39,467 nucleotides of DNA from a virus. The notes below the pieces were generated by a model. The model made no database searches and was not told the DNA's origin. It worked only from the letters and a program-made list of their open reading frames with translations. Location: the IMG/VR virus record IMGVR_UViG_3300048042_000025, positions 1-39,467 of that record, one strand, 5' to 3'. This document shows positions 14,734 to 38,318 of the stretch, piece after piece. The first letter of the stretch is position 1, and every line of letters starts with the position of its first letter. A program made the translations under genes and the position numbers.

Positions 14734-14743
14734 AAGGTCATGA
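14734..14743 (-). repeat. Variant copy of the post-stop element (TCATGACCTT)
   Basis: Five bases after the gp48-like stop, on the minus strand, TCATGACCTT differs at one base from the TCACGACCTT found after other late genes. Here the local sequence AAGGT-TTCATG-ACCTT can also fold as a 5-bp hairpin. Confidence 0.4.
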
Positions 14744-14747
14744 AACC

Positions 14748-15722
14748 TTATGGCGTCCCGGCCATTGCGCCCATCGCTGTGAGCCCAGAATAGTCAAAAT
14801 AAACTTGGGTATGCGCTGGCTTTAGGCAATTGATTCTCGTCTCAAGGTCTGTGTAGAGCGCGACCCTCAAATGAGGATCTACGCCAGCCTGCCCACTGCC
14901 CGCTCTGAACCAACTGAGACGAGGATTAAGGACCAGTACGCTCCAGTAAAAACGGATATTCGGCCCAAGGTCTCCAGAGCACTCCCATCTGAATCCCGCA
15001 TCAGGACCAGAGAGCGCCCTAGTGTCCCCGGCTTGGGATATTCCAGCCATAAACGGGGAATGCTCGATGATCTTGATCTGGTATCCAATCGCCGCCGCTT
15101 GGTTCACAAAGAACTGCGGATCTTGAGATCCAAGAAAGCGATACTTATTCGCCAGAGCCCATTGTCTGGCCTCGACGGTCATAGGCTCAGAGACCCCCGG
15201 ATCGGGAAGAGCCCAGCACCGTTCCCAGTCCGCCAGCATTTCGACGGTTGCTCTCGGGTCCGCCTCAAGCTCAATGAAATCCGCAGCACGGGAATCGACA
15301 TCCCCCCAGATTCCAGATTGCCCTAGGAGGAACTTGTATAGTGTCGTGTCATTCAGACGAGGCCATGCAGATCCTTGTGGAAGCAGGTTGTACCAGCCGG
15401 TCACATAATCTGTATCTGCCCGCCTATTGACGATAGGAGCCGAAGCGGGATAGTCCGGAACAGCGCCAAGGGTAATGAATGCCTTGAAGGAGTCCAGGGC
15501 TTCTGTCGCCATCCCCGAGCCCTGGAATGTAGAGAACCCCGTCCCTGTCGCGATGACCGAATCCAAGACTTCGGTTATTGTCATCGAGCCAAAGATTGGC
15601 GATTGATTCAGTCCCGTACCAGCGACAGTATCGTTTGCTTCAGTGACTGCCCCCGTTAGCCATTCAAGCCATGAGGGTTCTTGGCCTAGAGGTGATCCAC
15701 TGAGAGCTGAAAAGCAAAACAT
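14748..15722 (-). CDS. gp48-like tail protein (DUF2313) with long N-terminal extension
   Basis: Relative of Mu gp48/YmfQ, a baseplate-to-fibre connecting protein. The family part begins near residue 98 (NRRADTDYVTGWYNLLPQGS, then AWPR) and includes ELEADPRATVEMLADWERC (about 150-168) and ARQWALANKYRFLG with a typical C-terminal beta part. The first 97 residues are unusual: they contain two similar units (MTITEVLDSVIATGTGFSTF near 47 and MATEALDSFKAFITLG near 71). Family members are usually near 190-200 aa, so this extension is extra. In-frame ATGs at those units might be the true start. Position beside the fibre genes fits. Confidence 0.78.
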   Translation of the reverse strand: MFCFSALSGSPLGQEPSWLEWLTGAVTEANDTVAGTGLNQSPIFGSMTITEVLDSVIATGTGFSTFQGSGMATEALDSFKAFITLGAVPDYPASAPIVNRRADTDYVTGWYNLLPQGSAWPRLNDTTLYKFLLGQSGIWGDVDSRAADFIELEADPRATVEMLADWERCWALPDPGVSEPMTVEARQWALANKYRFLGSQDPQFFVNQAAAIGYQIKIIEHSPFMAGISQAGDTRALSGPDAGFRWECSGDLGPNIRFYWSVLVLNPRLSWFRAGSGQAGVDPHLRVALYTDLETRINCLKPAHTQVYFDYSGLTAMGAMAGTP

Positions 15723-15750
15723 GTGCTCTTTATCCTATCTTGAATTCACC

Positions 15751-17940
15751 TCACTGCCACGCGACTACGGTCAGACCGCAAGTCTGTTGACCGCCTCCAG
15801 CCCCATAGAAAGTTGTTGTGTTTGTCGAGTCAGACGCTTCAAGAGCCAGAAGGGTATGCTGCCCGATGCCCGGCCTACCTTGCCATGAAGCATACATCTG
15901 CCCATAGGACGCGACCGCAGTCTGGGAGACCGTGTATCCAACGATACATTCTGTCGCGAGAACAGAGACTGAATCCAATCCAATACCGCAGAGGGCATAG
16001 AGACCGGCTGTTGCCGCCGTCGATGCGACTTGAGCATTCTCAACATAGACAATGTCTTCCGAGACACCAACAACAAGGGATACCCTATTTGTCGAAGTCG
16101 ATGCATCCGTGGCGTGAAAAGCAGCGAGGGCATATGTCCAGCTCGCTTTGTTGTCCAAGGAAGTGATTGTGAATTCCTTCCGGTTGAAATAATTCCAAAC
16201 GTTCAGCGCTCCATATTGACCCCCAGAAGCCGCAGTCGTTGGCATGGTCATATCAACAGTGCCAGATGCGTTCGTCGCGATTGTCCCGAGATAGAGACCA
16301 TACCCAGCCGCTGGGCCGTTAGTGATGCTTGCTGTGTTGCTATAGAACCCATTGACCAATCCGATAGCCGCTGGAGTGCCACGAGAGAATGTTGCATTAC
16401 CAAGGGAGCCGTTTGCGACACCATAGACAATCGTCATCGTGCCTGTGCCGGTTGACGATGTATTGATTGCAGTTCCGCCAACTGTCGCTGAAAGCTCGAT
16501 TGTCGTACTGCCGTTGGAGGCCACAGCGTAGTACATTGTGTTCGCCGTGAAGCCTGTCGGAACTGTACCGCTAGACGTGAGATAGCATGGAGTCCCATTC
16601 GGGATATTGAGTCCTACCGTGAGAACGCCAGGGCTCGCACTTGTACACGTGAATGTCGTGCTTCCGGACCACATTGGACCACGGCTGAGAGTTGGCGTGC
16701 TACCGTTCATCCAAACGAACAAGTCTGCAAGAGCATTACCAGGCATTGCATAAGGCGAATGAGTCGCGTCAGCGAGCGTTTGGCTCAGTTCAGTGAATGT
16801 GCCAAAGGTCCAGATCGAACCGTTCCAGTACAGGGTCTCATTGCCCAAATATGGCGTGAGATAAATCGTGCTTGCTCCAGAGACTGAAGCCGTCAAGACT
16901 GGAGTCGCTGAGGTCAAAGTCAACCGACCTGAGGGAGAGTTATTACCAGAGCTTGCTTGAACGAATGCGGTAGTCGCTAGCGCCGTTGAATTGGTTCCGG
17001 TCGCCTGCGTGACACCCGTTGTTCCTGTCGGCAAGCTTGGAGTTCCGGAGAATGTTGGGGAGGCGAGCGGAGCATAGGTTGACGCCGCAGTCGTTGTCGT
17101 CAGGAAGCTTGCTGTCACGAAGGCTGTGGTCGCTAAAGATGTGTTGTTAGTTCCGGCGATCTGCGTCGTGGCTGTCGTGCCTGTCGGCAAACTTGGAGTT
17201 CCGCTGAAAGTTGGCGAGGCGAGAGGAGCAAATGAAGTCGCGACAAAAGCTGTAGTCGCAATCTTGGTCGAGTTGTCCCCTGCCGTCTGTGTGTTCGTGA
17301 CGGGGCTCGTCCCGAACGAGGTTAGAGATGAGGCTGTGACGTTCGCCGCGAGAGTCGTCCCGAGCATTGACGCCGCTTGGTTGAAATCATTGCTATTGCA
17401 TGTCAGATAGACCAGCGCCAAAGCAGATGCGCTCATTGCCAAATTCGAATTGGACGAAGCAATGATCGTCGTGCGTGCTAGTGCATCGACCGTTACAGAT
17501 TGAGTTCCTGATTGCGAACCTGTCGTGTTGACCGCAGCGCCTCCCGGAAGAGCGGAGATCTGGAATGCTCCAGAGCCAAAGCCTGCCGTGATAATCCAGT
17601 ACACTTGTCCAGCGACGATACCTGTCGGAAGTGCTCCAGTCGTGCTGAAGATCACAGGATTGCCGACCACCTGTCCATGCGCCGCGAGGGTGACGACAGC
17701 GGGAGAAGCAATAGAGATCGTGACCGCTGATTCAGCAATGGTGTAGAACGTCCCCTGCCCTATCTCCCAGTTCGCGCCATCTTCGATTGTATATGAGACG
17801 AGATTGCCATTCGCCGCTCCCGCCGCGAGGAAGGTCTGATAACCAACGGAGGCAATGTTCAAGGGAATCGTCCCGACAGAAGGAATGCCGGTGACAGTCA
17901 TCTTGGCGCGATTGAACATTAAAGAAGGAGTATAGGTCAT
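15751..17940 (-). CDS. Large tail fibre protein with repeated shaft motifs
   Basis: A 729-aa protein. The N-terminus (MTYTPSLMFNRAKMTVTGIP) is a virion-attachment segment, followed by one copy of the module with AAHGQVVGNPVIFSTTGALP and YWIITAGFGSGAFQISALPG (about 70-150). Residues about 225-345 contain shaft repeats of the kind APLASPTFSGTPSLPTGTT and (N/D)NxTxxATTAFV, a well-known tail-fibre motif present three times. A second module copy (GTPCYLTSSGTVPTGFTANT) lies near 450-510, and the C-terminal 170 residues are probably the receptor-binding head. The gene sits between baseplate genes (DUF4376-like and gp47 upstream, gp48 downstream). Confidence 0.78.
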   Translation of the reverse strand: MTYTPSLMFNRAKMTVTGIPSVGTIPLNIASVGYQTFLAAGAANGNLVSYTIEDGANWEIGQGTFYTIAESAVTISIASPAVVTLAAHGQVVGNPVIFSTTGALPTGIVAGQVYWIITAGFGSGAFQISALPGGAAVNTTGSQSGTQSVTVDALARTTIIASSNSNLAMSASALALVYLTCNSNDFNQAASMLGTTLAANVTASSLTSFGTSPVTNTQTAGDNSTKIATTAFVATSFAPLASPTFSGTPSLPTGTTATTQIAGTNNTSLATTAFVTASFLTTTTAASTYAPLASPTFSGTPSLPTGTTGVTQATGTNSTALATTAFVQASSGNNSPSGRLTLTSATPVLTASVSGASTIYLTPYLGNETLYWNGSIWTFGTFTELSQTLADATHSPYAMPGNALADLFVWMNGSTPTLSRGPMWSGSTTFTCTSASPGVLTVGLNIPNGTPCYLTSSGTVPTGFTANTMYYAVASNGSTTIELSATVGGTAINTSSTGTGTMTIVYGVANGSLGNATFSRGTPAAIGLVNGFYSNTASITNGPAAGYGLYLGTIATNASGTVDMTMPTTAASGGQYGALNVWNYFNRKEFTITSLDNKASWTYALAAFHATDASTSTNRVSLVVGVSEDIVYVENAQVASTAATAGLYALCGIGLDSVSVLATECIVGYTVSQTAVASYGQMYASWQGRPGIGQHTLLALEASDSTNTTTFYGAGGGQQTCGLTVVAWQ

Positions 17941-17957
17941 CTGAAAATCCTTTTATG

Positions 17958-18464
17958 TTAAATCGTTATCGAAGCTGAAGGCCAATTCACCGGATTGCCA
18001 ATACCGAGAACCCCCCGAGCAAGATCGACAGCCGCGACATAATCAGCGATAGCCGATGCGAAGGCTTGAAATTGCGATGTCGTGAATCCTGAATGCGGAT
18101 TGCCGTTGATGTCTTGCCAAGAGATTGTCGTCTGACCTGCCGGGAACTTTGAATTGACTGTGATATAAATGGAGACGGAGGCGAGGTTCTGTTGCGTCGT
18201 TGGGTCTACTGGATAGGTTCCGCTTAGCGCAGAGTTCGCAGTGAACGTGATACTGAGCCCTTGGGTCAGATCGGGAGCGGAGAGAGCGCTTGTCATCACA
18301 GGACTTTCAGCGACAGGGAGAGCCGTTGTGTCGAGAGGCATCCAAGTCCCCGCACCATCCCGGAGGATTTCCCATGCCGTCAGGTCAGATGGATTGCCGA
18401 CAGAGACCCCATAAATAGGAGGGCAGAGAGCGGCAAGGACGGAATGAACAAGAGCGAGGTCCAT
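17958..18464 (-). CDS. Hypothetical tail protein, possibly DUF4376-like
   Basis: A 168-aa protein. The C-terminal half (LSGTYPVDPTTQQNLASVSI, later FPAGQTTISWQDINGNPHSG and FQAFASAIADYVAAVD) resembles small phage proteins related to DUF4376 that accompany fibres. The N-terminal half has WEILRDGAGTWMPLDTTA. I start at the ATG (18464) with AGGAGATATTG before it; a TTG one codon earlier is possible. It lies between baseplate J and a fibre gene, so a structural or assembly role is likely. Family assignment is tentative. Confidence 0.5.
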   Translation of the reverse strand: MDLALVHSVLAALCPPIYGVSVGNPSDLTAWEILRDGAGTWMPLDTTALPVAESPVMTSALSAPDLTQGLSITFTANSALSGTYPVDPTTQQNLASVSIYITVNSKFPAGQTTISWQDINGNPHSGFTTSQFQAFASAIADYVAAVDLARGVLGIGNPVNWPSASITI

Positions 18465-18474
18465 CAATATCTCC

Positions 18475-19575
18475 TTAAAGAGTTATGGTGCCAAGGACCG
18501 CGAGAGCGCCTTTTGAAGGCGGGACCACGTCCGTCATGACCAAATCAAAATATGAAACGCCAGCCGCTTCTAAGAGAGCTTGATTCACCCAAGAGCTATA
18601 GATTGTCGTTGGGGGAACCGGAAGACCATTGAGACATGAAGCAGGGGCGGAGACTTCCTTGAGCATCGAAGAAACACTCGCTTCGATATTCGCCATCGTT
18701 CCCGAGTCAGTCGCATTAAGGTTGTTCAGAGTAAAATTCACGGGAAGCGGGATAGGGACAACAACAAAGCAATCGATTGCTGTCACCGGACGAACCGTGT
18801 TGATGTAGGCTTGGAGAATTGCGACATCGCCGGGAAGCGGGAAGCCCCCATTCGAAGCGCGAAGGTCATCACACATGAAGCGGACAGTTACAGTACCCAC
18901 ACCCATTTCACATGGGGAAACCCACGCCCGAGTGACGCCAGGAACACTGAGCGCCCATTGCTCGTAATCCGTCCCATTCCCCCCGCATGGAGGTTGCTGA
19001 ATACGGAGTAGAACACGAGCCCTAAGCTCATCATTAGTCTCTTGTTCAGCTCCCCCCGTGAGACTAACAACTGTCGCAATGTTCGCGACATTGGGAATTG
19101 CGGGAGCAAGAGCGAGAACCGTCCCCGGATCTAGATTTCCAATGGTCCCCGAGTAGGGAGAGATCGCGACCACAGGAACTGTGACCGGCGAGATGCCCAC
19201 GGTGATTTGCGCAGTCGATGCGAAGACCGGACCATTGCCGCCCCCCGCTGTAAACTGTTGCCCGAGGGGAATGATTGCCCCAGATGTCGCTGTGACTGAG
19301 ACCGTCCCGTTTGCATAGAAGGGAGGCTTCCTTGGCTGTAGAAGCCAAATGTCTGCAAAGCGATCAAGGAATGCATCTTCCGCCGTATCCGGGAGAAGCT
19401 GATTGCTCAGATATTGGATATACATGAGGGTTAGAAAGGCGAGCCCCGCGTTCGAATCTGCCAACACTCGGCCAACCGAATTCGGAAGCATCGGCGCAGC
19501 ATGGAGCTGCGAAATAATCGCGTCTCTATTCTGCGCTCTAACTTGATCTAATGTTTGGACCACGAAACTCGACAT
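18475..19575 (-). CDS. Baseplate J-like protein (gp47)
   Basis: Relative of Mu gp47/P2 gpJ, which forms the baseplate wedge of contractile tails. Visible family features are the N-terminal helical region with LLPDTAEDAFLDRFADIWLL (60-79), SVTATSGAIIPLGQQFTAGG (beta domain), GGAEQETNDELRARVLLRIQ (174-193) and YEQWALSVPGVTRAWV, all characteristic of baseplate J. The length of 366 aa matches the family. Position: after gp46 and a small structural gene, before a fibre. SD AAGGATATTTCGA. Confidence 0.9.
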   Translation of the reverse strand: MSSFVVQTLDQVRAQNRDAIISQLHAAPMLPNSVGRVLADSNAGLAFLTLMYIQYLSNQLLPDTAEDAFLDRFADIWLLQPRKPPFYANGTVSVTATSGAIIPLGQQFTAGGGNGPVFASTAQITVGISPVTVPVVAISPYSGTIGNLDPGTVLALAPAIPNVANIATVVSLTGGAEQETNDELRARVLLRIQQPPCGGNGTDYEQWALSVPGVTRAWVSPCEMGVGTVTVRFMCDDLRASNGGFPLPGDVAILQAYINTVRPVTAIDCFVVVPIPLPVNFTLNNLNATDSGTMANIEASVSSMLKEVSAPASCLNGLPVPPTTIYSSWVNQALLEAAGVSYFDLVMTDVVPPSKGALAVLGTITL

Positions 19576-19609
19576 TCGAAATATCCTTTATCTAAAAGAA
19601 AATCGGGTT

Positions 19610-19987
19610 TTACGGTGCCGCTGTGAGGGCCACTCCAGTCACGGTCGTCACCTGTCCAGCGACAAGGGAGACCGAGTTCAAGACGATATCGGTTCCAGAA
19701 GTGCCAACCGTCAGACCCTCAACCCACCAAGTCGAGTTGCCGTCTTGCAATTGGGCGAGAGCCGCCGTCCCTGATTTTGCGCAAATGCAGCTCAGAGGAA
19801 CTCCGAGCATCGTCAGAACTCCGCCAGAGAGACTGAAGGAGGGCTTCTGAAGGGTGATCGTCGCGAGGATATCCGTATAACTCGCATCGAAGATGACGAG
19901 CTGAGCGAAACCAGACTGGGCGTCTAGACGTGTTTGGACACAAGCCATCCGGTCATTCTTTAGTGGAGGTGCGTAATTTGCTGCCAT
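19610..19987 (-). CDS. Small phage structural protein, 125 aa
   Basis: I recognise no named family. It is a beta-rich, low-charge protein: DAQSGFAQLVIFDASYTDIL, ATITLQKPSFSLSGGVLTML, then TWWVEGLTVGTSGTDIVLNS and a hydrophobic C-terminus (VTTVTGVALTAAP). It is inserted between gp46 and gp47, which are adjacent in Mu, so it may decorate the baseplate. GGGAGATTTTCCAG precedes the ATG. Confidence 0.6.
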   Translation of the reverse strand: MAANYAPPLKNDRMACVQTRLDAQSGFAQLVIFDASYTDILATITLQKPSFSLSGGVLTMLGVPLSCICAKSGTAALAQLQDGNSTWWVEGLTVGTSGTDIVLNSVSLVAGQVTTVTGVALTAAP

Positions 19988-20021
19988 CTGGAAAATCTCC
20001 CTTTATAAAGAGTGTTTTGTT

Positions 20022-20031
20022 AAGGTCGTGA
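20022..20031 (-). repeat. Post-stop element TCACGACCTT
   Basis: One base after the stop of the gp46-like gene on the minus strand; identical 10-mer to those at 35383-35392 and 38309-38318. The flanks TTAA/TTAA allow a short AT stem. Confidence 0.5.
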
Positions 20032-20032
20032 A

Positions 20033-20548
20033 TTAAATCCGTTGCTGCGCCTGAAGGGGATAAAGCTCATTCCAGAGCGCTGCGAATTGCAGAGACAGCA
20101 ATTGCTTAGGACCGCGATACATAACGATCTGAGCGTAGATCTTGGACCCCTGTTCTTCCCAACAGTTGATCGTGATGTTCGAACAGACCTTCAGATCGAT
20201 GAATGGCTGAAGGGCTTGGGCAATGTAAGTTTGAACCCGAGTCAGAGTTGCCCCCTCCCTAGCCCCCGCATCCACAATCTTCGACCTCTTGAGGAGCCAA
20301 AGCTTCGACCCTATAGGCCACGCCCCCGGCCAGATTGCTCCAGCGTTTTCATCTGCCCACCATCCGCGAAGGTCTGTTGAGCCTGGAGTTGGTAGCGTGT
20401 CTGACTCAGATGCGACCGCGTCGGAACAGAGAGCGACAAGGACAGCCGATTCCAGCTCAGCCGTCTCATCCAGTTGACCGAATTCATTCATGAGAAGATC
20501 GTAAAGGATGACCCCTTCCGAATTGATAGGCGATAATCGAAGGTCCAT
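20033..20548 (-). CDS. gp46-like baseplate protein
   Basis: Relative of Mu gp46 (P2 gpW role), a baseplate wedge component. It begins MDLRLSPINSEGVILYDLLM. The family signature STDLRGWWADENAGAIWPG (about 57-75) with the downstream GSKLWLLKRSK is clear. The C-terminal half (YIAQALQPFIDLKVCSNITI) matches the wedge fold shared with T4 gp25-like proteins. At 171 aa it has about the family size. The F5/8-type gene lies 12 bases upstream, with AAAGGAGA before the ATG. Confidence 0.85.
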   Translation of the reverse strand: MDLRLSPINSEGVILYDLLMNEFGQLDETAELESAVLVALCSDAVASESDTLPTPGSTDLRGWWADENAGAIWPGAWPIGSKLWLLKRSKIVDAGAREGATLTRVQTYIAQALQPFIDLKVCSNITINCWEEQGSKIYAQIVMYRGPKQLLSLQFAALWNELYPLQAQQRI

Positions 20549-20560
20549 ATCTGGTCTCCT

Positions 20561-21493: not shown

Positions 21494-21503
21494 ATCAAGG
21501 ACC

Positions 21504-23102: not shown

Positions 23103-23104
23103 TA

Positions 23105-24223: not shown

Positions 24224-24236
24224 ATCTCATCCCCCC

Positions 24237-28342: not shown

Positions 28343-28345
28343 CGT

Positions 28346-28942: not shown

Positions 28943-28951
28943 GCATCCCCC

Positions 28952-29137
28952 CTAATCTTGACTCTCCGCTTCTATCTCTTTCATGCGCTTCGCCACTAAC
29001 CTAGCTAATCTATTGATCTCATCTCCATCTCTCTCCAAGAATTCGTAAGGAGAGCATTTGAAAATGAGGGCGAGATCAATCGCGTTATTGATCAGGCTAC
29101 CCCTGGCCTCGGGAGAAAATGCGGGGTCAGTGTCCAC
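28952..29137 (-). CDS. Chaperone frameshift extension (gp41/E+E' type), or separate 61-aa ORF
   Basis: As a stand-alone gene it would start at GTG (29137) without an SD. The same frame is open upstream to a TAA at 29231-29233, so it overlaps the end of the gp41-like frame by up to 139 bases in the -1 register. This is the arrangement of tail-assembly chaperones made by -1 frameshifting in contractile and lambda-type tails. The part after the zero-frame stop (SLINNAIDLALIFKCSPYEF, then LERDGDEINRLARLVAKRMK) is helical and charged, as in such extensions. Location just before the tape measure module fits. No canonical X XXY YYZ heptamer is present in the overlap; the closest is T TTT CTC at 29119-29113. 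Confidence 0.55.
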   Translation of the reverse strand: MDTDPAFSPEARGSLINNAIDLALIFKCSPYEFLERDGDEINRLARLVAKRMKEIEAESQD

Positions 29138-29487: not shown

Positions 29488-29522
29488 ATCAAATATCTCC
29501 TATCTAAAATACATACGGTATA

Positions 29523-29897
29523 TTACTGGGTGATCAATTCCTGCATTGTCATACCCTGGAACTCAATGCCGACTTTGCCTTCGTGAGCGTCGATGCTGAA
29601 TGCTGACGTGACCCAAGCGTCAGAAAGCATGTAGCTCATGCCGTTCGCCAGAGCGACGAGGACGGTTGCATTCGTAATCTGTTCGAGGGTAACGATGCTG
29701 AGTTGGTTGCCGATGCTAACGTCCCCCTTGATAGATGGAACGATAGGAACTTCGACATACCCATGAACACCGTCGAGTCCGGCGACACCGTCGCGCTTAA
29801 CTGTCGGACCAGTGACCGTGAAATTGCCGCGAGCCTCAAGTGTGTTGCCGTCATAGCTGAGCGCCATGGTTCCGCCGATACGATTTGAAGTAGCCAT
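29523..29897 (-). CDS. Tail tube protein (gpM-like)
   Basis: Relative of Mu gp40 (M)/P2 FII-type tube protein that polymerises into the inner tube of the contractile tail. The family start RIGGTMALSYDGNTLEARGN (6-25) is clear, followed by FTVTGPTVKRDGVAGLDGVH, GYVEVPIVPSIKGDVS and EGKVGIEFQGMTMQELIT at the C-terminus. The 124-aa length fits (Mu about 118). Immediately after the sheath gene as in Mu, separated by a stem-loop at 29930-29959. SD AAGGAGATTTTCAA. Confidence 0.92.
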   Translation of the reverse strand: MATSNRIGGTMALSYDGNTLEARGNFTVTGPTVKRDGVAGLDGVHGYVEVPIVPSIKGDVSIGNQLSIVTLEQITNATVLVALANGMSYMLSDAWVTSAFSIDAHEGKVGIEFQGMTMQELITQ

Positions 29898-29929
29898 TTG
29901 AAAATCTCCTTACATAAAAACCTTTGGTG

Positions 29930-29959
29930 AAAGGAGGGAACCACAGGGGTCCCCTCTTT
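29930..29959 (-). terminator. Stem-loop between sheath and tube genes
   Basis: On the minus strand AAAGAGGGGACC, loop CCTGT, GGTTCCCTCCTTT pairs over 12 positions with one G-T pair and one bulged C. There is no U-run after it, so it may stabilise or process the mRNA or partly terminate it, setting the sheath:tube ratio. Confidence 0.5.
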
Positions 29960-29973
29960 CTGAATAAATCGCC

Positions 29974-31500
29974 TTACAGATTCGCCGGAGTTGCAGCCAA
30001 GAGACGGAACTGAGCAAGAGCCGCAAAGATACGGAGCTGGCCAGCCAACGTTGGCGGGAACAGAACATTCACGCGGTTCGGGTTCACGCTGTCGATCTGA
30101 ACAATCAGGTTCTTAATGAAGGAAGGAAGATCCTGCGCAACGCCGTCATAGACCAGACCCTGATATTCAGCGACGAGTTCCGCTTGAATCATTGCTGGGG
30201 TGACGATTGCCTGACCCGGTCCAAATGCCGTTCCCGATGCAACGAGCTTCGAGCGAGGATACTTGCTCGTGATCGATGCCTTCAGGTTCGCGAGAATATA
30301 AGCAAGAGTCGAAAGCACTGTGCAAAGACCGAATGCAGTATCCCCCTGTCCATAGGCATTCTTGAGGTACGTGGTCTGCTCGACCATGATCGCCATGTTG
30401 CCATTCGGAGCCACAGCCTGAACCGCAAGCCCACTGTTCGCGAGGTTGTTGATCTCAGCCTGAGAGAAGCGATTGCTCTGGGATGCCGGAACGATACCAA
30501 TCAGTTCAAGAGTCTGAAGTGGGCGAGCCGGATCGTCAGAGAAACCAAGAGCCGCATTCGCAACGTAACCAGCCGCGACTTCCCACACCGGAGAAGGTGT
30601 AAGAGGCTCAATGACCATCGTGCTCATCTGAGGAGCATTCGGACCCCCGTTGCCGAACGTGATCGCATCCGAATAACCATCGCGAACAGCGTTGAAAATC
30701 TGACCGTATTGCTGACGGCTGTAGTTCCAACGTCCGCCGCTTGCGAAACCATACTCGGTATTCCAAGCGAGTTCCGATGCAGTATCCGTGTACGGCAGAC
30801 CTACATACAGATATGGGAAGGCCGCAATGTTCGTGATGAGGTTCGTGAAGACCGGCTCCGAAGTGCCCCCAGACATAGCAACTACCGTCAGGGTGAGACC
30901 CTTCGGGAAGACCTGCCCGCTGTTTGGACCTTGGAAGTTCGGGATGATTGTAATGTCATTGCCCGTGAGGCCCTTCCAGTTACAAGTCAGCGTGACTTCG
31001 GCTGAAGCGACAGTCGCAGTGACTGGCAATTGAACCATTGCGTTAATCGCCGCTGCAAGATTGGTTGCCACAGTGCCAACGATATCTGTCGAGCCGACTG
31101 CAACCTGAACCAACTGACCAGCGATGGTGACGAAGAGAGTGCCGGAAGCTGTTGGAGCCGTCGCAATGGTGATCGAACCTGTCGCCTGTTCGCCAGCCGA
31201 TGGGTCAGCAACCGCCGCCGCATAGAGCATCTGCCCTGTGTTGCTGTTGAAGAACGCTTGGATCATGCGATCAAGCATGGAGCCCGCGCCGAAGTAGAAT
31301 GTGCCAAGAGCGGGAGAGCCGATAGCAATTGGCGTGTCCATTGTCGTCACCGTGCCAGCATTCGCTCCAGTCGTGTTCATTTGACCGACGAGAAGAGCGG
31401 CTTGGTTCTGTGTGAGATTGCCAGCCATCGAGCCGTCCACCGTCGCATAAAACAACGGGATTTTTTGGCTCTCAGGAACCTGTGTTGAAATCGATCCCAT
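29974..31500 (-). CDS. Tail sheath protein (gpL-like)
   Basis: Contractile sheath subunit of Mu gp39 (L) type. The N-terminus (KIPLFYATVDGSMAGNLTQN near 13-32, QAALLVGQM) is typical, followed by ATGSITIATAPTASGTLFVT (a beta insertion domain, about 106-125) and GGTSEPVFTNLITNIAAFPY. The C-terminal polymerising domain includes MVEQTTYLKNAYGQGDTAFG (about 371-390) and QIDSVNPNRVNVLFPPTLAG, a signature of the family. 508 aa is in the expected range. Together with the tube gene it shows that the phage is a myovirus. SD AAAAGGAGTCCTATC. Confidence 0.92.
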   Translation of the reverse strand: MGSISTQVPESQKIPLFYATVDGSMAGNLTQNQAALLVGQMNTTGANAGTVTTMDTPIAIGSPALGTFYFGAGSMLDRMIQAFFNSNTGQMLYAAAVADPSAGEQATGSITIATAPTASGTLFVTIAGQLVQVAVGSTDIVGTVATNLAAAINAMVQLPVTATVASAEVTLTCNWKGLTGNDITIIPNFQGPNSGQVFPKGLTLTVVAMSGGTSEPVFTNLITNIAAFPYLYVGLPYTDTASELAWNTEYGFASGGRWNYSRQQYGQIFNAVRDGYSDAITFGNGGPNAPQMSTMVIEPLTPSPVWEVAAGYVANAALGFSDDPARPLQTLELIGIVPASQSNRFSQAEINNLANSGLAVQAVAPNGNMAIMVEQTTYLKNAYGQGDTAFGLCTVLSTLAYILANLKASITSKYPRSKLVASGTAFGPGQAIVTPAMIQAELVAEYQGLVYDGVAQDLPSFIKNLIVQIDSVNPNRVNVLFPPTLAGQLRIFAALAQFRLLAATPANL

Positions 31501-31551
31501 GATAGGACTCCTTTTAAAATGTGAATTAAATATCTCTCTAGAAAATCATGC

Positions 31552-31581
31552 CGCTATCCCTAGCGATAAAATAGGTCGTGA
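31552..31581 (-). repeat. Post-stop element TCACGACCT plus small hairpin
   Basis: After the tail terminator stop on the minus strand comes TTTCACGACCTATTTTAT (element at 31581-31573), then the hairpin CGCTA-GGGA-TAGCG (31565-31552). It sits in the gap before the sheath gene. Confidence 0.45.
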
Positions 31582-31584
31582 AAA

Positions 31585-32148
31585 TTATGCCCCCAGTAAA
31601 GTAATCCTCTCCTCTACAATAGGAGTCCCCAAAGGTTCCTCAATCGTAACATCAACCAACGTGAGGCTGTTTGGTGCGTAAGGCTCATACCGACTGCGAT
31701 AAGATACCGTCAGACTGACCCCGATCTCTGCAACGTAGCTTTCCCCTTCCTTCTTGAAGGCGAAGGCCCGCTTGACCCTCTCGACATATTCGAACTGGGC
31801 AAGGAATGTAGGGTCCGTCAGAAGGGTGTCATAAACAGATTGAGCGAATTCATCGAGGCTCCCATCAATGAACACTGGATCTGACGCCATGACGGTAAGA
31901 GCAATCATCAATTCCAGAGAGACTTTGAATTGCGGAATGGAGACGTTTCCGTCCTGAACTCCGGTCTCAGTGACGATGTAGACCCCCAACGCTGGCAATT
32001 GATCCGGCTGTATCGTCTGTATCGGGACTACCCGACTTGACTTGAGAGCGACCCCATTGACTGTCATAGGGTAGATGCGCGAAAGAACCGCATTCCGGAT
32101 CGTCACACCTTGTCCCGAAGGAAACCCAACAATGAAGGGAGTGGTCAT
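31585..32148 (-). CDS. Tail terminator/head-tail completion protein (gp37/gpU-like position)
   Basis: A 187-aa protein with PALGVYIVTETGVQDGNVSI (about 51-70), FKVSLELMIALTVMASDPVF, LDEFAQSVYDTLLTDPTFLA and a C-terminal beta part (YVAEIGVSLTVSYRSRYEPY). This order, with PxLGVY...and DxLLxDPxFL, is that of phage proteins placed just before the sheath in Mu/P2-like tails, which cap the tube and join it to the head. Its ATG overlaps the upstream FII-like stop by 4 bases. Family name is assigned from motif style and location. Confidence 0.68.
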   Translation of the reverse strand: MTTPFIVGFPSGQGVTIRNAVLSRIYPMTVNGVALKSSRVVPIQTIQPDQLPALGVYIVTETGVQDGNVSIPQFKVSLELMIALTVMASDPVFIDGSLDEFAQSVYDTLLTDPTFLAQFEYVERVKRAFAFKKEGESYVAEIGVSLTVSYRSRYEPYAPNSLTLVDVTIEEPLGTPIVEERITLLGA

Positions 32149-32579
32149 AGTTCACACACCCTCTTCAAGATGATGAGACAGCTTCCATCCCCCTTGAATT
32201 GAAGATCGTCAATATTGAAGCTGACCGTTGTCCCGAGAGCAATTCCGGCAAAGAAGGATTCGGTGTCACTCACTAATGAAATCTCGTCTCCTTGAACTGG
32301 CGGAATTGCATACTCAGAGAGCCTGATCGAAATCGAGAGAGTCCTCGTCGTCAGTCTGGCTCCGTCTTCGAGAAGGACCTCAGTGATATTCGAAGACCAC
32401 ACACCCCGGCCTGTGTATGGAACAGGCGGAACAGCGGGAACATCCGGAATAACAGGATCGTGCCCGTGAGCTGGGATATCAGGAGTCCCCGGTTGAGAGA
32501 CCGTTGGAATCACCGTGATAGGTTTCGCGAACGTGTTCTGTCCCGGAGCCACGAGGAGGGCATCGAAATCAATTGCCAT
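32145..32579 (-). CDS. Head-tail adaptor, lambda gpFII-like
   Basis: A 144-aa protein (start at the ATG 32579, after GGGAGGGGCGTTG; a TTG one codon upstream is the alternative). It begins AIDFDALLVAPGQNTFAKPI and ends LQFKGDGSCLIILKRV, which resembles the phage attachment/FII family (VxxxP...FGxP..Y.P). A proline-rich insert (about 29-57: PGTPDIPAHGHDPVIPDVPA) sits in the middle, then VWSSNITEVLLEDGARLTTR and IRLSEYAIPPVQGDEI. It is translationally coupled to the tail terminator. Role: joins the filled head to the tail. Confidence 0.65.
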   Translation of the reverse strand: MAIDFDALLVAPGQNTFAKPITVIPTVSQPGTPDIPAHGHDPVIPDVPAVPPVPYTGRGVWSSNITEVLLEDGARLTTRTLSISIRLSEYAIPPVQGDEISLVSDTESFFAGIALGTTVSFNIDDLQFKGDGSCLIILKRVCEL

Positions 32580-32602
32580 CAACGCCCCTCCCTTGTTCTC
32601 TC

Positions 32603-32995
32603 TTAGACCGTGGTCAACTTCGTATAGAAGACGAGAAGGAACCCGCCTGTCGTGTCGGTATGCCCAGTGTTGTTCACCTTGCCTGCCGAGAGCGTGAATT
32701 CACTTGTGAGATCCACAACACCGGAGACGATGGAAGTCGCACACGGGAAATAGATGACCGCGTCGAGTTCATCCCCTGACTTAGCCGCTGAAAGGGTATG
32801 ATCCCCAGCCGCCCCGCCAGCAATGAGAGCGTGCTTGTTGAAGCCGCCCGCATGGATACCAGCGCCTGTGACTACCGGCTGAAGAGCAGTAGCAGCAAGA
32901 GCACCTTGAGCCCCCGTTGCCAAAGAGTCCGTGATTCCATAGCCAGCGAGAGTCGTTGGCTTGTATTGAATTTCGCCCCATGTCCAGAATTGCAT
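32603..32995 (-). CDS. Small fibre-like protein in the head module
   Basis: A 130-aa protein. The N-terminus has IQYKPTTLAGYGITDSLATG (9-28), a motif (KPTTLAGYGITD) found repeatedly in tail fibres, then an Ala/Gly-rich stretch and a beta-rich C-terminal half (DELDAVIYFPCATSIVSGVV, LTSEFTLSAGKVNNTGHTDT). It lies between the major capsid gene and the head-tail adaptor, where a fibre is unexpected. It could be a head fibre, collar or decoration protein. GGGGGGACTGAC precedes the ATG. Confidence 0.6.
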   Translation of the reverse strand: MQFWTWGEIQYKPTTLAGYGITDSLATGAQGALAATALQPVVTGAGIHAGGFNKHALIAGGAAGDHTLSAAKSGDELDAVIYFPCATSIVSGVVDLTSEFTLSAGKVNNTGHTDTTGGFLLVFYTKLTTV

Positions 32996-33019
32996 GTCAG
33001 TCCCCCCTAAATGTTCTTG

Positions 33020-33053
33020 AGTATCGGCTCTGAGAAATGCCCAGAGCCGACTA
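33020..33053 (-). terminator. Stem-loop after the major capsid gene
   Basis: TCGGCTCTG (33050-33042) and CAGAGCCGA (33032-33024) form a perfect 9-bp stem with a 9-base loop, extended by AGT/ACT with a bulge. No U-run follows, so an mRNA 3' stabiliser or processing site is at least as likely as a terminator. Confidence 0.55.
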
Positions 33054-33068
33054 TTGATTTAAGGAGTC

Positions 33069-34136
33069 TTACGAATAGACCGCATCGCAAGCGACGAGCG
33101 AGGCCACTGCGTTTGTACGCGAAGGAATCACAATCGGGCTCGACTGCATCATGACATACCAAGCAGCCGGATCATGGGAGACCCATGACTTAGGAGCGAA
33201 TGCCATTGGCTCGTAATTGAACTCTGGGTCAAGGATCTGACCGAAAGCCCGCGTTCCTTGAAGGTCAGGACCGCCGACGATCACCATGCCGTCCGTCAAC
33301 ATTGGAACTTCGACATCGCTGTCATTGACGAACCAGTCATTGTAGAGCCACAGAGAAAATGCGCCCCATTGCCCTTTGTACACAGCGCCGAGTTTTTGAT
33401 CGGAACCAATGTTGATCGAGTTGCCGTAATCGCCCAGTTTCGGGAAATAGATCGCCTCTTTGAGTAGGGGATCACAAATGAAGCCATCCCACGAAGAAGT
33501 CGTGAAGATGATGCGATCAACCTGTGCGCCAGAGAGCTTCAGAACATCCCGTTGAAGAGCTTCGATGTCCGCTACTGGGTGCGCAGTGCCCGCCGCAACG
33601 TTCGCCGCAGTCCATTTCGTCCCGCCCGAGTTGGTAGCGATCAGAGATGCGTCACGAAGGAAGTTGATCGTGACTTCCGGGAAGCCTTCGCCAACAATCA
33701 CGACAGTGCCCGTCTGAAGGGCAGAAGCAGCCATCCATTCGAGTCTGCGCGTCAAGCAACGGATCTGATCCGTCATCTCAGCTTCGATATTCGCGGCCCA
33801 GCGAACCGGACCATCCTTGTCGCCGCCGATGCGTTCGCCGATCATGCGACGGAGCGGACGCCTCACGTCTGGCACCCTTTTGTCCTTCGTATAAGCTGGC
33901 TTGAAAACGTTAGTCGTGTAAGCGAGAGACTCGACCAGCTTGCCTTCAACCATTGGGCTCACGAACGGAGACATCCGACGCTTGCCAAGTTCAATGTCGA
34001 TGGAAACGAATTCGCTATCCGCCAACACTTGATTCGGGAAGAAGGAGTCCAGCAAGAATGATTGCGGACGAATGAGAGTGGGAATGACCTGAACAAGAGT
34101 GTTCGTGTCATAAGGGGTAAAACCTGTAACAGCCAT
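33069..34136 (-). CDS. Major capsid protein, lambda gpE family
   Basis: Builds the icosahedral head. The family is recognised from FTPYDTNTLVQVIPTLIRPQ (6-25), LLDSFFPNQVLADSEFVSID (28-47), then KRRMSPFVSPMVEGKLVESL and TNVFKPAYTKDKRVPDVRRP, the usual N-terminal arm and E-loop region of pfam03864 proteins. The C-terminal half has FGQILDPEFNYEPMAFAPKS. 355 aa is about the lambda gpE length (341). Its gene sits after gpD, with stem-loops on both sides, consistent with high and separately set expression. Confidence 0.93.
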   Translation of the reverse strand: MAVTGFTPYDTNTLVQVIPTLIRPQSFLLDSFFPNQVLADSEFVSIDIELGKRRMSPFVSPMVEGKLVESLAYTTNVFKPAYTKDKRVPDVRRPLRRMIGERIGGDKDGPVRWAANIEAEMTDQIRCLTRRLEWMAASALQTGTVVIVGEGFPEVTINFLRDASLIATNSGGTKWTAANVAAGTAHPVADIEALQRDVLKLSGAQVDRIIFTTSSWDGFICDPLLKEAIYFPKLGDYGNSINIGSDQKLGAVYKGQWGAFSLWLYNDWFVNDSDVEVPMLTDGMVIVGGPDLQGTRAFGQILDPEFNYEPMAFAPKSWVSHDPAAWYVMMQSSPIVIPSRTNAVASLVACDAVYS

Positions 34137-34161
34137 AATGAAATCTCCCTAAATGGGAGGA

Positions 34162-34176
34162 GGAGACTGGGTCTCC
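34162..34176 (-). terminator. Stem-loop between decoration and capsid genes
   Basis: GGAGAC-CCA-GTCTCC, a perfect 6-bp stem with a 3-base loop, lies in the 82-base gap after the gpD-like stop and 26 bases before the capsid ATG. It is followed by TCCTCCCATTT. Mild terminator or processing signal. Confidence 0.45.
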
Positions 34177-34218
34177 CCCAAAATCGAATGAAATATCTTT
34201 TGGATGAACTGCATCATG

Positions 34219-34632
34219 TTAGTGAGCGTTGTCAGCCGAAACGAAGGACTTGAGAAAGATCCCGTATGGACGGAGAGCTGTCTTCAAAGTCACCAAGGAC
34301 CACGAGGCATCAAACGTCAGTGCATCCCCGTTGAATTCGCCCGCGATATAGACAGGACCAGTGACATCGCCGCTAGTCGGATCAATGTAATCCGCAGCAA
34401 TTGCGACCGGGATCTGAGAACCGTCAGAAGGCCCACCCGTCACACATTCGATGTAGAGCCCAGAAGCAGTGATCATGCCGAGCACAGTGCCGCGTTGGAT
34501 AGCAGCGGAACCATGGACCGTGACCGAGTCTGTGACAATCGTCTCAGCCTTGCCAGCAATGAGCTGATCGGGCTGGAAGACCTCAGTCGCCATAAACGGC
34601 TGTTGGGGATTCTCGTAATATGAAGTTGCCAT
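34219..34632 (-). CDS. Head decoration protein, lambda gpD-like
   Basis: Trimeric protein that caps and stabilises the expanded capsid. YYENPQQPFMATEVFQPDQL (5-24) is the N-terminal arm, followed by GSAAIQRGTVLGMITASGLY and PVAIAADYIDPTSGDVTGPV, then YIAGEFNGDALTF, all standard for the HDPD family. 137 aa from the ATG at 34632, which has AGGAGG upstream; an in-frame ATG at 34665 lies before the SD and is rejected. It lies next to the capsid gene as in lambda (D-E). Confidence 0.88.
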   Translation of the reverse strand: MATSYYENPQQPFMATEVFQPDQLIAGKAETIVTDSVTVHGSAAIQRGTVLGMITASGLYIECVTGGPSDGSQIPVAIAADYIDPTSGDVTGPVYIAGEFNGDALTFDASWSLVTLKTALRPYGIFLKSFVSADNAH

Positions 34633-34705
34633 TTTATGGCCTCCTATGTTGAAATGAAAAATCAAATACCTTGGTTAAACGTCCCCCGCCTTTCAGCGGA
34701 CTGAA

Positions 34706-35329
34706 TTAGATCTTGCCCCGTCTCCATTGACCGGCGAGAACGATCTCACGAGCCCGAGGGTCTGTGGGAAGATTGTCTTCGGCTTTGGCGTTCGGATCAC
34801 CGGGAATGAGTGTCGCCGCTGGAACAGTTTCCATCTTCTCAGAGAGACCCTGCTTCTTGGCTTCCGGAGCCTTCGCGAGAATCCCAAGAGCGACTTCGAC
34901 AGACAGATCGGTCTCATAGGCGAGATATTCCGCCTGTGCTCCGCCATGAGCCATGATGGACTTGATCCGGGAGCGCTCAGCCTTGCGAGCATCTTCCTTT
35001 TTCTCGTCGTCATCATCTTCCTGTTTGTCTTCGGCTTTCTCGTCGTCTTTTTCGTCGTCTTCAGCCTTGACTTTCTTTTTGCCCTTGGCCTTTTTGCCCT
35101 TTTCGTCTTTCTCGTCATCCTTGTCTTCGGGCTTTTCGTCTTCAGCCTTTTTGGCGTCTGTATCTTCGTCCTCGACCTTCGGGCAAGCCTTTGCGTCTTT
35201 CTCGTCTTCAGGCTCTTTCTTGTCGTCATCCTTGTCTTCGGCAACCTTCTTCGCAGTCGGGCGAGCGCCGCGCGTCTTGAGGTGCGCAAAAGGAGCTGGC
35301 TTGACGATCTCTTGCAATTCAATGGTCAT
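34706..35329 (-). CDS. Acidic/lysine-rich scaffold-like protein (Nu3-like role)
   Basis: A 207-aa protein. Residues about 27-115 are almost entirely D, E and K (KKVAEDKDDDKKEPEDEKD style). The C-terminal 90 residues hold ERSRIKSIMAHGGAQAEYLA and YETDLSVEVALGILAKAP, a motif known from the C-terminal scaffold part of S49-type head proteases in alphaproteobacterial phages. In lambda the scaffold Nu3 is the C-terminal part of the protease gene; here protease and scaffold are separate adjacent genes. The end (REIVLAGQWRRGKI) is basic and may touch the capsid. A K/R-rich frame overlapping it (34693-35322) is a by-product of the repetitive codons, though it is oddly long. Confidence 0.68.
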   Translation of the reverse strand: MTIELQEIVKPAPFAHLKTRGARPTAKKVAEDKDDDKKEPEDEKDAKACPKVEDEDTDAKKAEDEKPEDKDDEKDEKGKKAKGKKKVKAEDDEKDDEKAEDKQEDDDDEKKEDARKAERSRIKSIMAHGGAQAEYLAYETDLSVEVALGILAKAPEAKKQGLSEKMETVPAATLIPGDPNAKAEDNLPTDPRAREIVLAGQWRRGKI

Positions 35330-35382
35330 AATTATCTCCTTTTGGAGGATTCAAATTGGTGATCTATCTAAAGACAATTAAT

Positions 35383-35392
35383 AAGGTCGTGA
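35383..35392 (-). repeat. Post-stop element TCACGACCTT
   Basis: Five bases after the protease stop; AATAA-TCACGACC-TTATT can fold with a 5-bp AT stem exposing the conserved octamer. The remaining gap to the scaffold gene (35330-35382) holds only its SD. Confidence 0.55.
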
Positions 35393-35397
35393 TTATT

Positions 35398-36186
35398 TTA
35401 CTCTGTCTCCATCTCCTCCATGAAGCCCACGAGAGCCTCATCAAGGGTCATGACAGCATCACAGAGCCCCGCATCGACAGCCGCCTGTCCAAGGAACGTT
35501 CCCGCCTCCATGGCTTTGACAGCATCGACATCAAGGTCTCGGTTCTTCGCGACAAGCTCACAGAATTGCTCTCCAAGAACATTCACGTCAGCTTGGAGAC
35601 GTTTTGCCCCCTCTTTGGTGAGTTCTGTCGTTGGATAGGAATCCGTCTTGAAGTCACCAAACTGAAGGTGAGTGATCTTGACGCCCGCCTTCTCCATTGC
35701 CCCTGTAATATCCGAGCGAAGGGCGATGACTCCGATACTTCCCGCCCCGCCTGTCGAGGGAAGGGTGATCATGGATGTTGCACAAGCAAGACAATAGGCT
35801 GCGCTGTATGCACAATCATCAAGAACAGCGATGATTGGCTTCACTTCCCGAGCCTCTGCAATCTTGTCTGAAAGCTCGAAGCAGCCGCTGACATCCCCGC
35901 CGCCCGAATTGAACACGAGAGCGATGCCCGTGACATCAGGATCTGAGACCGCAGCGAAAAGAGAGTTCGCTAGGTTTGAATAGAGTGTCTCACCAAAGTA
36001 GTTGTAATAATCATGGACAAGGACGCCCGAGATTGGGATGATTGCCACGCCCCGAATGAATTCGAAGGGCTTCCCCTCGACCATCTTGCCGCCGATTACT
36101 GCCTTCTTCGTGTTCTCTATGAGGTGAGAGACCTTAGAGGGTTCAAGGAAGAGAGGCTTGTTCAAGAAGCATGGGTTAATTTCCAT
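35398..36186 (-). CDS. S49-family head maturation protease (lambda gpC-like)
   Basis: Serine/lysine-dyad peptidase that processes head proteins. A 262-aa protein from the ATG at 36186 (SD GGGGGAG upstream; it overlaps the portal by 11 bases). Visible features are VAIIPISGVLVHDYYNYFGE (about 47-66), FNSGGGDVSGCFE (oxyanion region, about 92-104), CAYSAAYCLACA with the nucleophile S128, and LQFGDFKTDSYP with the general base K180. S49 order is Ser then Lys, as here. The chain ends soon after the catalytic core, without the usual scaffold tail, which is a separate gene downstream. Adjacent to the portal as in lambda B-C. Confidence 0.88.
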   Translation of the reverse strand: MEINPCFLNKPLFLEPSKVSHLIENTKKAVIGGKMVEGKPFEFIRGVAIIPISGVLVHDYYNYFGETLYSNLANSLFAAVSDPDVTGIALVFNSGGGDVSGCFELSDKIAEAREVKPIIAVLDDCAYSAAYCLACATSMITLPSTGGAGSIGVIALRSDITGAMEKAGVKITHLQFGDFKTDSYPTTELTKEGAKRLQADVNVLGEQFCELVAKNRDLDVDAVKAMEAGTFLGQAAVDAGLCDAVMTLDEALVGFMEEMETE

Positions 36187-37891
36187 CGGACTTCTCCCCC
36201 TCATCTTTTGCATTTGCAGCATCCATCGCCGCGTCCGCCGTCACCGTCTTCGCCTGAGCTTCCTTCGCTGCATCGACATTGGTCCATTCCGGAGCTGGGA
36301 TTCCCAATTCCTTGAACTTGTTGATCTCATAGGCGCGTTGCTCAAGAACCTCCTCGAAGTCCTGACCCTGTTCAGCGCAAACGTCGCGAAGTGTCGTGAA
36401 GCCCGCCTCACACTTCATCTGATCCCCCTGGACTTCCGCGACTGGATCGATCCATCCTCTCGGAGGTCCGCACCATCTTGCCTTGGCATATGCGCCACGG
36501 AATTCGATGAAGCTTGGAGCCCCCTTAGGAAGAGGCAGGTCTTCAGTCTCGAAAAGTTCTTCGAGAAATGCGTTTCGGATCGGATTAGGCATCCGAACAC
36601 AGAAGTCCTTCAATCGACGATGCAGTGTCTTGTGGGCTTCGAGCATCGCAGACCGGCTGGAGCTGTAATTCACCTTGGAGAAGTCATTGGAGAATTGAGC
36701 CGCTGAAATGCCTAGGGCCGAAGAACAGTTGTTCATCACAGCGCTCTCGAACCCAGCGAAGTTAGTTGCGGGACGATTAGCGCTCACACTCTTGATCTCT
36801 TCTCCAGGGAAAAGAAGTGGAATTCGCGCATTCCCAAGGACGATCTTGGAGTCCTTATGAAACTCCCCCCGAGACTCCTGATAGAAGTCGAGGTGCTCAT
36901 CATCATCAAGAGCGTCCGCGACCAAGTCTTTGTCGAAGGGGCTTTGGATGTATGCGGCGAATATCGAATTGATGATTGCTGAATCAAGCTCAGTCGAATC
37001 GTACTTCGCCAGCATCTTGATACGTTGAAGGATCGGGAGGAAGATTCCGCCGACTCCGCGATGCTGATAAAATCTGTTGGGTTCAAACGCATGAATGATA
37101 ATTGGACGGCTCCATGAGGTTTCCCTCTCGACACGAGTCCAAGTAAGAGCCTTCGCCGCCGCCCACCAATCCCCCGCGTGTGCCTCCCGGATGTAATAAG
37201 CCTTTGCGACCCCGTCTGCATCAACCTCGACACCTCCCCTCATCGTCTCATTGTCGAAGCGGAGTTGCGGATTGCTGAGTCGGTCAGGATCGATACCCTC
37301 CACGCAAGTAGCGAAGCGAGCCTTGCCCATCCCGATTCTCTTCGGGAGCCATCTGAGCCTTGCGATAGCGTCCCCATCCACAAGGAGATGTCTGAAAGCG
37401 AGAGCCATCATCTGAGTGAAGTTGTTCAGTCTGTGGACATCGCAATACAGACCAGTGTCCGTCTCTGCCCAAGACTGCCAATGAGCGTCAATCGCCTTGC
37501 TGAATTCACGAGCCCATGTGTGATCGAAGGCTTTATTCCCCGTCACGAGGGCAAGATAGTGATAATCCGGATTGGGGATTGGGCGAAGATGCGCGCCAAT
37601 GGCGGAGTCGAGGATGCGTGTGACTGCGCCCGCTGCCCAGCCGTCATTCCGCACAAGATCCCGGACGCGAGCTGTAATTCGGTCACGATAGACGTTCTCT
37701 GAATCGACAGAGCCTAGATAGGGCTGCCAGTTCTCAAAATGCTGATCTGTTAGACTTGCCGCGTCATAAGGACCGTTCCAAGATCGATTGCCCCCGCCTG
37801 AAAGAGCACGATTGCGAGAGCGAATGGCATCGGCCCGCTTCGTTGTGTTAAGGGGATTGCCATCAGGGCCGAGAATCATGCTTGGAGGCAT
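36176..37891 (-). CDS. Portal protein, lambda gpB family
   Basis: Forms the dodecameric DNA gate at one vertex of the head. A 571-aa protein with YRDRITARVRDLVRNDGWAA, GAVTRILDSAIGAHLRPIPN (about 88-107), MALAFRHLLVDGDAIARLRW, YYIREAHAGDWWAAAKAL and FEPNRFYQHRGVGGIFLPIL, all typical of lambda-type portals (Phage_portal_2). The C-terminal tail (DAAMDAANAKDEGEKSDGN) is low-complexity. Located between gpW-like and the protease, as in lambda W-B-C. The 3' end overlaps the protease start. Confidence 0.92.
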   Translation of the reverse strand: MPPSMILGPDGNPLNTTKRADAIRSRNRALSGGGNRSWNGPYDAASLTDQHFENWQPYLGSVDSENVYRDRITARVRDLVRNDGWAAGAVTRILDSAIGAHLRPIPNPDYHYLALVTGNKAFDHTWAREFSKAIDAHWQSWAETDTGLYCDVHRLNNFTQMMALAFRHLLVDGDAIARLRWLPKRIGMGKARFATCVEGIDPDRLSNPQLRFDNETMRGGVEVDADGVAKAYYIREAHAGDWWAAAKALTWTRVERETSWSRPIIIHAFEPNRFYQHRGVGGIFLPILQRIKMLAKYDSTELDSAIINSIFAAYIQSPFDKDLVADALDDDEHLDFYQESRGEFHKDSKIVLGNARIPLLFPGEEIKSVSANRPATNFAGFESAVMNNCSSALGISAAQFSNDFSKVNYSSSRSAMLEAHKTLHRRLKDFCVRMPNPIRNAFLEELFETEDLPLPKGAPSFIEFRGAYAKARWCGPPRGWIDPVAEVQGDQMKCEAGFTTLRDVCAEQGQDFEEVLEQRAYEINKFKELGIPAPEWTNVDAAKEAQAKTVTADAAMDAANAKDEGEKSDGN

Positions 37892-37903
37892 TCAATTTCC
37901 CCT

Positions 37904-38152
37904 TTAGAAGTATGGGCGAAGGGCGCGACGTGTGCGCTTTCCCGAGAGCTGGGCTTGGAGCATTGCGATCCACTCAGTCAATTTTGCAGAATCTGCCGGG
38001 GTATAGCTGACGTTTTTGCCCTCATAGCTCACAGTCACTACCTTCGCCCCCATCATGAGGTCAGCCATCGCTTGCTGAGCCTGTGTGAGCCATAAGGTGA
38101 GAGTGTCGCGAGAGACGCCAGCGAGGATGGAGTTGTTTGGATTGTACCTCAA
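37904..38152 (-). CDS. Head-tail joining protein, lambda gpW-like
   Basis: An 82-aa protein of the gpW family, which fills the portal and connects the tail. RDTLTLWLTQAQQAMADLMM (15-34), GAKVVTVSYEGKNVSYTPAD (35-54) and LTEWIAMLQAQLSG agree with gpW (helix, beta hairpin, helix). The start is TTG at 38152, overlapping the TGA of the small membrane ORF (TTGA), with AGAGGGG upstream. Between terminase and portal, as in lambda A-W-B. Confidence 0.85.
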   Translation of the reverse strand: MRYNPNNSILAGVSRDTLTLWLTQAQQAMADLMMGAKVVTVSYEGKNVSYTPADSAKLTEWIAMLQAQLSGKRTRRALRPYF

Positions 38153-38265
38153 TGGCCCCTCTTTCTCTTATGTACTAGGACAAGAACCGGGGCTCGAATA
38201 AGGAAGCCGGTATAGACAAAAATAAAGACCGCTATTGGGAGAAGAGACAATGCAATTGGACCCAT
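38149..38265 (-). CDS. Small single-TM ORF (38 aa) between terminase and gpW
   Basis: MGPIALSLLPIAVFIFVYTG is followed by a hydrophobic FLIRAPVLVLVHK and the charged KRKRGH. It has an excellent SD (GAGGGGGA 7 bases before the ATG). Its TGA overlaps the TTG of gpW by sharing the bases TTGA, so translation of gpW may depend on it. It is too short for family recognition; function is unknown. It could be a membrane-active peptide, or simply a leader cistron. Confidence 0.5.
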   Translation of the reverse strand: MGPIALSLLPIAVFIFVYTGFLIRAPVLVLVHKRKRGH

Positions 38266-38276
38266 AATTGAATCCC

Positions 38277-38301
38277 CCTCTCTAGGGCTACACCTAAGAG
38301 G
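38277..38301 (-). terminator. Stem-loop between terminase and downstream genes
   Basis: On the minus strand CCTCTTAGG, loop TGTAGC, CCTAGAGAGG pair over 9 positions with one bulge. It lies upstream of the SD of the 38-aa ORF. Termination is not certain because no U-run follows. Confidence 0.4.
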
Positions 38302-38308
38302 ATTTTAT

Positions 38309-38318
38309 AAGGTCGTGA
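38309..38318 (-). repeat. Post-stop element TCACGACCTT
   Basis: Fifteen bases after the terminase stop, preceded by an A-run; ATAA-TCACGACC-TTAT can fold as a small hairpin. The adjacent stem-loop at 38277-38301 suggests a structured 3' leader. Confidence 0.5.

Follow-up and report, generated by a model that had tools for sequence, protein, structure and literature searches.

A short word in an A/T-rich island recurs behind the stop codons of five late genes in a capsid-E, Mu-tailed phage and possibly marks internal late promoters

The window analysed here is an entire viral record of 39,467 bases with a G+C content of 53%. Its minus strand carries a late operon that runs from a terminase gene, cut by the end of the record (the frame is still open at position 39467), to an amidase gene. 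The intervening order is gpW connector, portal, S49 protease, scaffold-like, capsid (phrog_29), tail terminator, sheath (phrog_165), tape-measure-like, GP46, baseplate J, Gp48 and fibre-like genes. The gpW connector gene shares its start region with an overlapping 38-codon ORF that has a hydrophobic stretch. The small gene behind the tail tube gene is followed by a long and strongly folding gap; the placement of this gap hints at a tail assembly chaperone extension made by frameshifting. The record also holds a type II restriction-modification cassette, assigned from PADLOC, Pfam and NCBIfam matches and composed of a Dam-like methyltransferase (plus strand), a restriction enzyme and an HTH control protein (both minus strand). 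An HhH-GPD (AlkA-like) DNA glycosylase gene near this cassette is possibly host flank or cargo, and another protein has a weak proteasome-type (Ntn hydrolase) match under the Pfam cut-off.

The word TCAYGACC-T(T) has five occurrences, each on the late (minus) strand and each in a gap, 1-15 nt past a stop codon (Table 1). These placements agree with the sequence-only reading, which had described an element 1-15 bases behind the stops of five late genes; the measured distances are 15, 5, 1, 3 and 4 nt. The cassettes downstream of the sites are those for connector/portal, scaffold/capsid, sheath, baseplate J and fibre. Sites A and B are identical over 19 bases.

Table 1. Coordinates of the five sites and of other features of the window, with the copies of the junction element found in two other prophages (numbered in their own loci)
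Feature	Position	Strand	Sequence of the site	Word and its position	Context
Site B	38302..38325	-	aaaataa-TCACGACC-ttataaaat	TCACGACCTT, 38309-38318	15 nt past terminase stop; 45 nt upstream of the 38-codon ORF
Site A	35376..35399	-	aaaataa-TCACGACC-ttattaatt	TCACGACCTT, 35383-35392	5 nt past S49 protease stop; 55 nt upstream of scaffold-like gene, itself ahead of capsid gene
Site C	31565..31588	-	ataattt-TCACGACC-tattttatc	TCACGACCTA, 31572-31581	3 nt past tail-terminator stop; 73 nt upstream of tail sheath gene; a CGCTA-GGGA-TAGCG hairpin comes next
Site D	20015..20038	-	atttaat-TCACGACC-ttaacaaaa	TCACGACCTT, 20022-20031	1 nt past GP46-family stop; 36 nt upstream of ORF 19610-19987
Site E (weakest)	14727..14750	-	taaggtt-TCATGACC-ttgtttttt	TCATGACCTT, 14734-14743	4 nt past Gp48 stop; 37 nt upstream of long fibre-like gene
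38-codon ORF	38265-38149	-			overlaps start of gpW connector gene
Major capsid gene (phrog_29)	33069..34136	-			query for finding relatives
Tail sheath gene (phrog_165)	29974..31500	-			downstream of site C
ORF	19610-19987				precedes baseplate J gene
Long fibre-like gene	12539-14698				after site E
Restriction-modification cassette	1098-2946				type II
HTH control protein	2719-2946	-			within the cassette
DNA glycosylase gene	3513-4145				HhH-GPD (AlkA-like)
Protein with proteasome-type match	5870-6358				under Pfam cut-off
Hairpin-bearing gap	34137-34218				adjoins capsid gene
Hairpin-bearing gap	32996-33068				adjoins capsid gene
Hairpin-bearing gap	29898-29973				separates sheath and tube
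Long folding gap	28943-29091				after the small gene that follows the tail tube gene
Junction element, prophage L052	5755-5793, 9931-9969, 12407-12445, 13983-14022, 20207-20245				five copies
Junction element, prophage L057	5644-5682, 9927-9967				two copies

The bare count of five TCAYGACCT is moderately unusual, and it is the placement that is decisive. Dinucleotide shuffles of the whole window yield an expected 0.74 occurrences of this 9-mer, with at least five in 1 of 100 shuffles. In the 25 late gaps (623 nt in total, the 18 nt upstream of each start being excluded), the 9-mer TCACGACCT is found in four, and with all words considered, no 9-mer common to four late gaps appeared in 200 dinucleotide or 20,000 mononucleotide shuffles. 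This supports the proposal that a genuine cis element recurs along the late operon. The distances to the stop codon are shorter than under uniform placement within the gap (p = 0.007); the gap of site B was taken 5 nt too short in both the late-gap shuffles and this test, and the longer gap would make the stop anchoring slightly stronger. Equal frequency of the motif inside coding regions had been named beforehand as a finding that would speak against the element. Instead, all five copies are in gaps, coding sequence has none, and nothing of that quality occurs inside genes. A 24-position weight matrix recovers exactly the five sites (28.9, 28.9, 25.6, 25.6 and 17.3 bits, site E scoring lowest), the runner-up in the window being noise at 11.2 bits and the top of 20 shuffles reaching 16.6; as the matrix was derived from the same sites, these scores describe them and do not test them.

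The element is larger than first described. In the seven bases before and nine bases after the octamer TCAYGACC, 75 of 80 positions (94%) are A or T, compared with about 61% in the other late gaps (p < 1e-5), and the element is best written W7-TCAYGACC-W9. Chance recurrence of a short word is very improbable. The whole-window shuffles that reached five copies once in 100 are what can be said for it, and the late-gap shuffles, the A/T island and the confinement of every copy to gaps all stand against it.

The sequence-only reading had also proposed that at several sites AT-rich complementary arms flank the octamer, which would then form the loop of a small hairpin. The flanks are indeed A/T-rich overall, and complementary arms are present at two sites: five pairs can form at site A, four at site B and none at the other three. 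The hairpin itself is not borne out, since four of the five sites fold no better than shuffled sequence (z-scores of -0.30, +1.14, -0.05 and -1.36). Site E folds well (z -2.37), but its hairpin is another one, in which part of the octamer is base-paired. The octamer has a mean unpaired probability of 0.72, against 0.42 in control post-stop octamers, an accessibility expected from the A/T-rich flanks. Intrinsic terminators were considered at the sites and set aside: a weak one is present at site C only, and strong hairpins (about -25 to -28 kcal/mol) occur in long, motif-free late gaps, two of them adjoining the capsid gene on either side and one separating sheath and tube.

These folding results bear on the possibility that the octamer acts in the mRNA, where it would be bound or cut (processing, protection or antitermination) and so separate the messages of successive cassettes, with A/U-rich flanks keeping it single-stranded just behind the terminating ribosome. 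The accessibility of the octamer and its anchoring to stop codons are consistent with such a role, as is a covarying hairpin at equivalent junctions in two other prophages (described below), which indicates that RNA elements at such borders probably exist. Nonetheless, the sites have no common structure, Rfam gives no match for the element, and the accessibility follows from base composition. We regard a site of this kind as unlikely.

The reading judged most likely, albeit tentatively and at somewhat less than an even chance, takes W7-TCAYGACC-W9 for an internal late promoter of compact build, made of a single element and read by a specificity factor of the phage. This factor, a sigma-like protein or activator whose gene would lie outside the truncated record, would recognise the octamer in concert with the RNA polymerase of the host. 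Melting would take place in the A/T-rich 9 nt directly downstream, and transcription would start about 6-9 nt beyond the octamer, giving short leaders that keep the ribosome-binding site. Five such starts would renew transcription, one ahead of each of the five structural cassettes listed above. The observations behind this proposal are the sites, their orientation, the A/T island, the spacing to the next gene and the lack of a sigma-70 -10 box at a fixed distance; from them we infer that the octamer is read as DNA, by a factor of the kind just named, and that RNA starts there. As expected of such promoters, one compact conserved element stands ahead of several late gene groups, oriented with transcription, and an A/T-rich candidate melting segment lies just downstream of it. 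About 20 nt separate the octamer from the beginning of the ribosome-binding site at sites D and E, which leaves room for a start 6-9 nt downstream.

Two described promoter types share this anatomy of one compact element and no -35, and it is on this likeness that the ranking of the promoter reading is based. Late promoters of T4, which depend on gp55, consist of an 8-bp box followed directly by an A/T-rich segment (PMC2988020). They resemble the window sites in both features and in serving late genes, but the T4 box is of the TATA type and occurs at about 50 sites with transcripts of either polarity, whereas the window has a G+C-rich octamer at five sites on one strand. The middle/late promoters of phiEco32 read by gp36 have a single element, tAATGTAtA, at six sites, with the start 6-8 bp downstream (PMC8948821). 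Like the window sites, each lies upstream of a gene group with one conserved element; the differences are that phiEco32 has an A/T-rich element and a known, tested factor, whereas the window has an octamer of another sequence, for which a factor is only predicted.

Several observations weigh against the promoter reading. The octamer, being G+C-rich, differs in composition from the boxes of T4 and phiEco32. A conserved initiating base at a fixed distance downstream was not found, and the element was found in no relative. Furthermore, the tie to stop codons (p = 0.007) holds even in longer gaps, which is not required of a promoter. The scan of window genes recognised neither a sigma factor nor an RNA polymerase, in a record that ends inside the terminase gene. 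In favour of the reading, a single-element promoter needs no partner element (-35 or -10) at a set distance, and none was seen, the downstream -10 box searches giving p = 0.21 and 0.91. A sigma-70 promoter with the word as its -35 was tried and dropped, as the expected -10 hexamer some 17 nt downstream is lacking. At sites D and E, spacing by itself excludes a conventional -35 role: the start would fall beyond the ribosome-binding site and leave it out of the message.

A different DNA-level role would be that of a stoperator-like site, in which the asymmetric octamer binds a phage repressor that, in the prophage, blocks RNA polymerase through the late operon; the sites would lie near stops and thus outside coding sequence. 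An asymmetric, intergenic, gene-end site in a single orientation relative to transcription is the hallmark of the L5/Bxb1 stoperators (PMC3029335; PMC9283540), and the window sites display it. Stop anchoring (p = 0.007) fits as well, and a temperate phage is likely from the occurrence of late-gene relatives in bacterial genomes, as expected of prophages. Copy number argues the other way, with five sites in the ~31 kb late operon compared with 23-36 per genome in cluster A phages; five in 39.5 kb is below the two to three dozen expected of stoperators, which would also stand at early promoters, in a record that is without the early region. L5/Bxb1 stoperators are moreover 13 bp long with a known cognate repressor, whereas the window copies sit in an A/T island, which this reading leaves unexplained, and no such repressor gene was seen in the window, the HTH protein resembling restriction-modification control proteins. 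This interpretation is rather unlikely, slightly more so than a site acting in the mRNA.

Less probable again is a stop-codon-anchored punctuation element that would couple termination at one late gene with fresh expression of the cassette behind it and be read by a phage factor. On this doubtful account, a factor recognising a G+C-rich octamer in an A/T island would represent a form of late-operon control not yet described. An architectural or recombination site, either an IHF-like host bending site or a short shared border sequence favouring module exchange, is more improbable still. Sites A and B match the IHF consensus WATCARNNNNTTR at 12 of 13 positions, the sites lie at module borders, and A and B have their 19 bases in common. 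Against this, GACC, four bases that IHF leaves free, is invariant in the sites, C and E fit poorly, and no relative carries the same word at module borders. The word also resembles the 3' tail of 16S rRNA (8 of 10 bases); this likeness was dropped, as pairing with the downstream ribosome-binding sites would extend over about four bases only.

If the sites are indeed promoters, a phage with a capsid-E and a Mu-type tail would transcribe its late operon from several starts and not as one transcript from one start. The octamer would then offer a new recognition sequence, by which its factor could be sought and the late-gene programmes of uncultured phages could be read.

The array looks lineage-specific, judging by the sequences compared. 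There was no nucleotide match to the window, and the nearest entries in the annotated phage collection are at most 41% identical in the sheath and 56% in the capsid. Viral relatives were gathered by capsid, sheath, baseplate J and terminase, and 80 bacterial-genome loci by capsid alignment (49-66% identical); the word as an array in gaps is absent from all those scanned. Portal-gene scans turned up no relative, and the best result of order-wide genome searches for nearer relatives was about 50% sheath identity over the full length. Viral contigs were also scanned for exact 14-15-mers of the motif with its flanks, and among the matches listed there was no further post-stop array; the repeats of one contig proved to be coding sequence or A/T-rich noise. 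Records very close to the window are possibly missing from the collections searched. Absence of the element from the corresponding gene ends of relatives had been named as counter-evidence, and the relatives at hand do lack it; at no more than 66% capsid identity, they are too distant to refute a lineage-specific regulatory site. Lineage specificity is also a trait of the start-associated sequences (SAS) of cluster K mycobacteriophages, which are likewise short asymmetric repeats of gaps in one orientation. However, SAS lie 3-7 bp before the starts of non-structural genes, whereas the window sites are anchored to late-gene stops, 36-73 nt before starts.

Comparison of junctions with one another within 96 records singled out three: the window phage (17 shared bases), a prophage of the proteobacterial MAG BP5.bin5 (L052; 41 bases) and a prophage of Acetobacteraceae KSS12 (L057; 14 bases). 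The two prophages share an element unrelated to the octamer, with a 5-pair stem, a GTGA or GCGA loop and two covarying pairs, and behind these a conserved stretch that ends in GATGGAG, the likely ribosome-binding site. Some of its seven copies are upstream of connector, capsid, sheath and tube genes. When the window and 42 other loci were searched with a covariance model of this element, no copy was convincing. Unrelated junction elements in these prophages suggest that such borders may be regulated by fast-changing signals. Two further loci, L037 and L058, have terminator-like hairpins at places similar to the hairpin-bearing capsid and sheath/tube gaps of the window.
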